A stretch of 36,942 bases of DNA. Origin: Candidatus Jacksonbacteria bacterium RIFOXYB2_FULL_44_15 (GTDB lineage: Bacteria > Patescibacteriota > Patescibacteriia > UBA9629). Shown one piece after another: positions 35,501 to 36,942 of the stretch; the stretch's first letter is position 1; every line of letters starts with the position of its first letter. The notes under the pieces are model-generated. The model was not told the DNA's origin and made no database searches. It saw only the letters and a list, made by a program, of their open reading frames with translations. The position numbers were made by a program, and so were the translations under genes. The stretch spans positions 1 to 36,942 of the forward strand of contig MHJY01000034.1 of NCBI GenBank assembly GCA_001818235.1. Reading direction: 5' to 3'.

Positions 35501-35602
35501 GTCATCCCGAGCTTGTCGAGGTCAGCCTCGCCGGCAGGCAGGGATCCCTTATCTGCGCCAAAAGCGATTCCTCGACTCCGCTTCGCTACGCTCGGAATGA
35601 CA
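35501..35602. repeat. 102-bp palindromic interspersed repeat, copy A (intergenic)
   Basis: gtcatcccgagcttgtcgagg...ctcgactccgcttcgctacgctcggaatgaca; near-identical to the reverse complement of 36496-36597. Confidence 0.9.
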
Positions 35603-35634: not shown

Positions 35635-36942
35635 TTAGACAAGCCCAATTCTCCCCCGCAACTTGCGATGATAATTAACCGCAAAGCGGTGGGCTTCGTC
35701 GCGCACCCGAATCAAAAGCAGTTGATTTTGTTTGATGCGAGCGCGGTTGCGTAAAGTCATCGGCCCGAAAATCAATTCCACTTTTTTGCGCGTTGGCCCT
35801 TTGGCGATGCCGACAATTGGAATTTTGGGGCAGATCTCAACTGCCGCGTTAACCTGGCCGCGTCCCCCATCAATCAAAATCAAATCTGGCATTGGCCAGT
35901 CGCTATGCTTTAAGCGACGCTGGAGTATTTCCTGAATCATGGCTGGATCATTGGCGCTAGGCACGGTTTTTATTTTAAATCGTCGATACTGGCTTTTATT
36001 CGGCTCGCCTTGTTCAAAGACCACCAGACTGCCGGTCGCAAATAAACCACTGATATTGGAGATATCGTAGCCCTCAATGCGTTGCCAAACAGAGCTCAAA
36101 TCGCTCGGGCGTTTTAGTAAATGCACGTCTTGAATATGCTCGAGATAATAAATTTGATTGCGCAAAATCATTGCCTGTTCAAATTTTTGCTCGTCGCTCA
36201 AACGCCGCATTTCGGCGATCAACTTTTTCATCACTAATTTTTTTTTACCTCGGAAAAATAAAATCAAATTGCGGATAATCTTGCCGTATTCAATGGCGCT
36301 TATTTCTCCGGTGCAAACCCCGGGGCATTGGCCAAGATGATGGTAGAAGCAGGATTGCATTGATGCCGTTTGACCTTGATTACAGTAAGGAAAAATCCGG
36401 CGCATCATTTTTAAAATCGAGGTGACGATGTCGCGGTTTAAAAACGGGCCGAATTGGGCGCGAAACATTTTTTTTTCGTAGACTGTCCGAGAATTGTCAT
36501 TCCGAGCGTAGCGAAGCGGAGTCGAGGAATCTCTTTTGGCGCAGATAAGGGATCCCTGCCCTGCCGGCAGGCGGGCCTCGACTTCGCTCGGGATGACAAA
36601 TTCGTATTTTTGCTTATTCCCGGACACTCTGAGGTTAGGAGGGGTCGGTTTTAAATCACTGCCGCGCTTGATTAACACTTTTGGAAATTTTTCTTTGGTG
36701 ATGACGATGTACAGAAAACTGCGGTCATCTTTTTGTAAAATGTTATACTGGGGTTTGTATTTTTTGATCAGCTCGGCTTCCAAAATCGTCGCTTCTAAAA
36801 CCGAATCAGTCAGCTGAAAGCTGATTTTCGCGATTTCCTGTACCAAACGAGTGGTTTTGGTATCATGAGCGCCCACCAAATATGAATTTACCCGTTTTTT
36901 CAGGGAGCTGGCTTTGCCGACATAAATCACTGTCTGGCGCGC
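35635..36942 (-). CDS. uvrC: Excinuclease ABC subunit C (partial, N-terminus beyond window)
   Basis: VIYVGKASSLKKRVNSYL (GIY-YIG domain), FGPFL, CFYHHLGQCPGVCTGEIS, IEGYDISNISG, LILIDGGRGQVNAA, RDEAHRFAVNYHRKLR. Confidence 0.96.
   Translation of the reverse strand, partial: ARQTVIYVGKASSLKKRVNSYLVGAHDTKTTRLVQEIAKISFQLTDSVLEATILEAELIKKYKPQYNILQKDDRSFLYIVITKEKFPKVLIKRGSDLKPTPPNLRVSGNKQKYEFVIPSEVEARLPAGQGSLICAKRDSSTPLRYARNDNSRTVYEKKMFRAQFGPFLNRDIVTSILKMMRRIFPYCNQGQTASMQSCFYHHLGQCPGVCTGEISAIEYGKIIRNLILFFRGKKKLVMKKLIAEMRRLSDEQKFEQAMILRNQIYYLEHIQDVHLLKRPSDLSSVWQRIEGYDISNISGLFATGSLVVFEQGEPNKSQYRRFKIKTVPSANDPAMIQEILQRRLKHSDWPMPDLILIDGGRGQVNAAVEICPKIPIVGIAKGPTRKKVELIFGPMTLRNRARIKQNQLLLIRVRDEAHRFAVNYHRKLRGRIGLV
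36496..36597. repeat. 102-bp palindromic interspersed repeat, copy B, in frame inside uvrC
   Basis: gtcattccgagcgtagcgaagcggagtcgagg...cctcgacttcgctcgggatgac; translated within UvrC as VIPSEVEARLPAGQGSLICAKRDSSTPLRYARND. Confidence 0.9.

Follow-up and report, generated by a model that had tools for sequence, protein, structure and literature searches.

The closest described systems are the CGTC-tagged REPs, which carry an unpaired CGTC (or TGTC/CCTC) tag, an 8-9 bp stem starting with AT, a loop of 4-5 nt and a CCA-like tail; the tag is often TGTC, the units form head-to-head dimers, and in H. neapolitanus such dimers lie inside a larger palindrome (Di Nocera et al., 2013; PMC3733652). Intragenic in-frame copies have been listed, many of them in repair genes, those for excinuclease ABC proteins among them, no dedicated transposase was found, and RPE-4 and RPE-6 of R. 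conorii belong to these repeats (PMC3733652). The in-frame inserts made by Rickettsia palindromic elements (RPEs; Ogata 2000/2002) have been summarized, and an RPE-containing guanylate kinase of R. conorii is active (PMC2229807). For Patescibacteria/CPR our literature search yielded no report of inserts of this type, although this does not show that there are none, and the matches to a search with a DNA word from the core of the element described here look unrelated by title.

The window analysed here is one whole contig (C34; 36,942 nucleotides) of the genome of Candidatus Jacksonbacteria bacterium RIFOXYB2_FULL_44_15 (G000), which comprises 1.25 Mb in 54 contigs. At its end lies uvrC (35635..36942, minus strand), a short-type gene of 435 codons assigned by open reading frame and Pfam, which ends after the RNase H domain and has lost its 5' end at the contig end, about 310 bp beyond the insert. 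Pfam domains flank the insert on both sides, namely the GIY-YIG domain (PF01541; 36742..36933, residues 4-67), the UVR motif that contacts UvrB (PF02151; 36142..36234, residues 237-267) and the RNase H-like nuclease domain (UvrC_RNaseH, PF08459; 35677..36102, residues 281-422), the last also with matches to solved structures, all on the minus strand. The frame runs over all 435 codons with neither stop nor frameshift, confirming that the insert is read through, as the first-pass annotation had claimed.

That annotation had described a palindrome of 102 bp with the ends GTCATTCCGAGC...GCTCGGGATGAC at 36496..36597, inserted in frame as exactly 34 codons between the GIY-YIG domain and the FGPF motif. 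Palindrome, reading frame and position were borne out, but 102 bp is the length of the core only, a head-to-head pair of TGTC-tagged palindromes on the minus strand, which is bracketed by outer inverted repeats (AGACTGTCCGAGAA/TTCYCGGACASTCT). In the sense of uvrC, the complete element (36479..36631, minus strand; about 153 bp or 51 codons) consists of an upstream outer repeat (CAGAGTGTCCGGGAAT; 36616..36631), a one-sided spacer (AAGCAAAAATACGAATTT; 36598..36615), which other copies conserve as AAGCAAAAACGTCAATTT, the core, and a downstream outer repeat (ATTCTCGGACAGTCTA; 36479..36494); just outside the core, AGACTGTCCGAGAAT (36480, plus strand) and AGAGTGTCCGGGAAT (36630, minus strand) form this second, outer inverted repeat. 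The element extends from the third base of codon 104 to the second base of codon 155, with ends accurate to 1-2 bp. From FPKV to FGPF the UvrC linker measures 82 residues, whereas the usual length is 20-21 in bacteria and 26-31 among the closer short UvrCs; subtracting 51 residues leaves 31, within the range of the latter, while subtracting 34 leaves 48. Since the outer inverted repeats belong to the element, and since all 51 codons are extra in the alignment with UvrC of relatives, the insert is about 51 codons long rather than 34. The identity of the insert as a repeat, its boundaries to within 1-2 bp, its in-frame insertion and the native length of the linker without it are established. No empty-site relative was found at the DNA level, G001 of the same family having only 56-62% protein identity, hence no precise excision boundary can be given.

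The 153-nt insert folds along its whole length into a single long hairpin, in which the outer repeats pair across and the spacer is mostly bulged out on one side (as RNA -64.8 kcal/mol vs. -44.1 for shuffles, z -6.1; as DNA z -5.7). That so stable a hairpin (-65 kcal/mol) would form in the mRNA might favor removal of the insert after transcription or translation, in the manner of an intron or intein, or its bypass. However, an Rfam search of the window and the region returned no match to an intron or any other family, the copies vary in length and sequence, and no protein-splicing motifs were seen in the 51 amino acids; removal is also not needed, because the insert is in frame and free of stops, and we regard it as highly improbable.

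Compared by its described features, the core resembles the CGTC-REP superfamily: both have a terminal tag, head-to-head dimers, many copies and in-frame genic copies, excinuclease genes included, and part of the halves also have a stem starting with AT. In contrast to CGTC REPs, the stem of the window element has 5 bp closed by tandem G.A mismatches, its tail is mostly CCC or CTC and not CCA, the outer AGACTGTCCGAGAA repeats are absent from the description by Di Nocera et al. (2013), and Patescibacteria are not among the phyla covered there. With RPEs it shares a palindrome of 100-150 bp, in-frame insertion in conserved housekeeping genes, an open frame and a presumed selfish nature, in a different phylum and without evidence of common descent with RPE-1; the likeness to Rickettsia palindromic elements suggested in the first-pass annotation is supported by the occurrence of in-frame palindromes in conserved genes as well as between genes. 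Like bacterial MITEs (NEMIS/Correia, RUP, ERIC), the element is non-autonomous, hairpin-forming, about 150 bp long and bounded by terminal inverted repeats, but no consistent target-site duplication and, in the searches described below, no cognate transposase was found.

The insert had been taken for a repeat, not native UvrC sequence, on account of a near-identical copy outside the gene, and both points stand, as the element is dispersed genome-wide and the UvrC alignment marks the stretch as extra. The second core copy (35501..35601, plus strand; 92% identical, BLASTN E 9e-35) is inverted relative to the first and begins about 34 bp beyond the uvrC stop, in convergent intergenic space, with a degenerate right outer repeat and no left one. 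The two window copies, inverted about 0.9 kb apart, could recombine and thereby invert the 3' part of uvrC. A BLASTN copy count, as proposed at first pass, gave 79 core matches in the genome, and further genic insertions came to light among the copies. The half-site GTCATYCCGAGC occurs 123 times with at most one mismatch, compared with 0 for a reversed-pattern control, which is far beyond chance and corresponds to about 60 elements. From the stretches around the copies, 44 paired cores (88 halves) were read, head-to-head with their tags outward and most of them directional, with GTCATCCC at one end and GGAATGAC at the other. Of the 88 halves, 87 carry the tag TGTC and one CGTC; the tail is mostly CCC or CTC, and the stem pattern ATYCC..GGRAT with GA..RA inside occurs in 36 halves, many halves having extra hairpins. 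Copies differ in length and sequence, and the core loop region accommodates additional small hairpins, and even repeats of other kinds; in three copies (L159, L168, L173) the loop itself is filled by another repeat, of the AATTTTCAATTTAC type. The outer AGACTGTCCGAGAA repeats and the asymmetric AAGCAAAAACGTCAATTT spacer are confined to a subset of copies, with a position-wise outer-repeat match at both ends in 8 of the 44 cores, shifted ends in others, and one or both repeats missing in many.

The element is presumably mobile. Inspection of the flanks of the copies gave no consistent target-site duplication, and a search with the element ends, which did not cover every transposase type, revealed no obvious element with a gene inside. 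Two single Y1_Tnp (HUH) genes (L175 and L176, at C45:17068 and C23:3260; open frames of 205 and 198 aa) were considered as mobilizers and rejected, there being no element copies within about 1.5 kb of either. The second of them (C23:3260) lies between genes resembling mutS and mutL. Other tagged palindromes are present in the same genome (L062 58-179, L010), with GTCATTGCGAGC...GGCAATC and a dRS3-like TTCCCGCTTTCGCGGGAATGACA.

A second in-frame copy in a conserved gene was found in miaB (L012 1449-1598; core at G000:C5:86296-86445), between the UPF0004 and Radical_SAM domains, with the orientation and frame that it also has in uvrC (NKQK..FVIPS...ARNDN..R). The match to the miaB profile breaks at 120/134, its two parts being 234 bp apart, and the inter-domain region of the protein has 131 residues, compared with 38-113, mostly 54-74, in relatives. 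In a GT2 glycosyltransferase gene (L061 1501-1632; G000:C47:14061-14192), the insert is a 132-bp core that lacks outer repeats and is in frame but oppositely oriented; the remaining copies are mainly outside conserved genes. The uvrC and miaB copies, of 153 and 201 bp, are both multiples of three and open in a shared frame, which is closed in 4 of 6 other near-complete copies; this pattern is what random insertion followed by selection for intact genes would leave. A coding frame evolved in the element itself was also considered and rejected, as 11 open frames in 8 near-complete copies, where 7.3 are expected from shuffles, are no good evidence for it.

The miaB copy also bears on whether the assembly joined two sequences chimerically through the repeat. 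Repeats break assemblies, this one is fragmented, and the contig ends so close beyond the insert; however, the same element is in frame in miaB, and the two flanks read as parts of a single UvrC without a change of frame, G001 and G040 being the closest relatives of each, so that an artefact is extremely unlikely.

Very probably, the insert is a tolerated passenger in the UvrC linker. A non-autonomous palindromic element, in which a larger inverted repeat encloses a head-to-head pair of TGTC-tagged, REP-like hairpins, would have transposed or been copied into the variable linker that leads from the GIY-YIG domain to the Cys-rich/FGPF segment; because the length of this copy is a multiple of three and one frame is open, the gene would have stayed translatable and been retained by selection. 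The insert would then be translated as a flexible loop of 51 residues. In the AlphaFold model its pLDDT is about 38-52, compared with 93 and 78 for the two preceding blocks and 83-87 after the insert, the GIY-YIG part being only moderately confident (60-77). The insert, considered at first pass as a possible surface loop, is modelled with low confidence as a disordered one; most likely it is a flexible loop outside both catalytic centres.

The first-pass annotation had left two outcomes, tolerance or loss of function, of which the first is favored. A young pseudogene inactivated by the insert would fit the large size of the insert, its proximity to a catalytic domain and the small, symbiont-like genome, and it has been speculated that REP-tagged repair genes are mutator marks (Di Nocera et al., 2013; PMC3733652). 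Against this, the reading frame is undamaged, and the residues invariant in a 36-member UvrC alignment, which include nuclease-domain residues of both halves, are all kept, albeit by construction; at the level of sequence, the catalytic and family-invariant residues of UvrC are intact. The gene is the sole full UvrC match in the host genome, uvrB is present, cut by a contig end, and so is uvrA (L275/L276, G000:C6). UvrC genes with comparable inserts have moreover been kept in other lineages. Loss of function is disfavored because of the retained invariant residues and the presence of uvrA and uvrB, and we consider it improbable; the effect of the passenger on repair would be nearly neutral. 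Compared with its family profile, uvrA is missing about 120 positions (127-251).

Outside the host genome, the complete element did not turn up in any of 56 genomes, and only 4 of these gave short matches to the core, so that the complete form looks lineage-specific. The UvrC linkers of G025 and G048 contain other DNA, unrelated to the window element and dispersed in those genomes (10 matches in G025 and 4 in G048, including the query itself, one in G048 being 99% identical over 67 bp). With the window element, this makes at least three unrelated repeat families that have separately entered this one linker. In both of these UvrCs (L053 in G025, L041 in G048), the RNase H domain contains a further insert, ahead of PDL. 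In G031 (L051, L268), UvrC carries four palindromic in-frame inserts at sites other than the linker, one of which belongs to a repeat with 42 matches in the G031 genome, another of them in its uvrB; several more such inserts occur in UvrB of G048 and G031 (e.g., PSPGLRPPSPLGRGEGEG in UvrC/UvrB of G031). Among 32 MiaB proteins, palindromic inserts are present in that of G000 and in L241, with L242 as a weaker case. What recurs is a kind of insert, not one element.

These repeated independent inserts in UvrC/UvrB of G025, G048, G031 and G000, together with the REPs reported in excinuclease genes of several species (PMC3733652), could point to co-option, with UvrB/UvrC as preferred targets and the insert tuning UvrC activity or expression. 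However, miaB and the glycosyltransferase gene are targets as well, the MiaB protein of another genome (L241) also has a palindromic insert, and loops and linkers are enough to explain the insertions, so that co-option appears quite improbable. A broader proposal, that unrelated palindromic repeats land preferentially and repeatedly in uvrB and uvrC of Patescibacteria and that the inserts are more than tolerated passengers, is unlikely; if true, it could reflect an interaction of hairpin DNA with nucleotide excision repair, or selection for a weakened UvrBC. Some of the relatives had been selected because their linkers were long or their matches split, and we therefore do not claim that uvr genes are preferred.

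Protein-coding palindromic repeats, known from Rickettsia, Wolbachia and some REP-rich bacteria, are thus extended to Patescibacteria, a group with small and otherwise streamlined genomes. Whether the insert is a neutral passenger or alters repair is now a testable question, peptides of the VIPSEVE..ARNDN type in predicted proteins should be read as repeat-derived, and it is the recurrence in UvrB/UvrC that deserves further attention. In G038, UvrB (L231) has about 290 and about 92 extra residues, which resemble a candidate intein or homing-endonuclease insertion.
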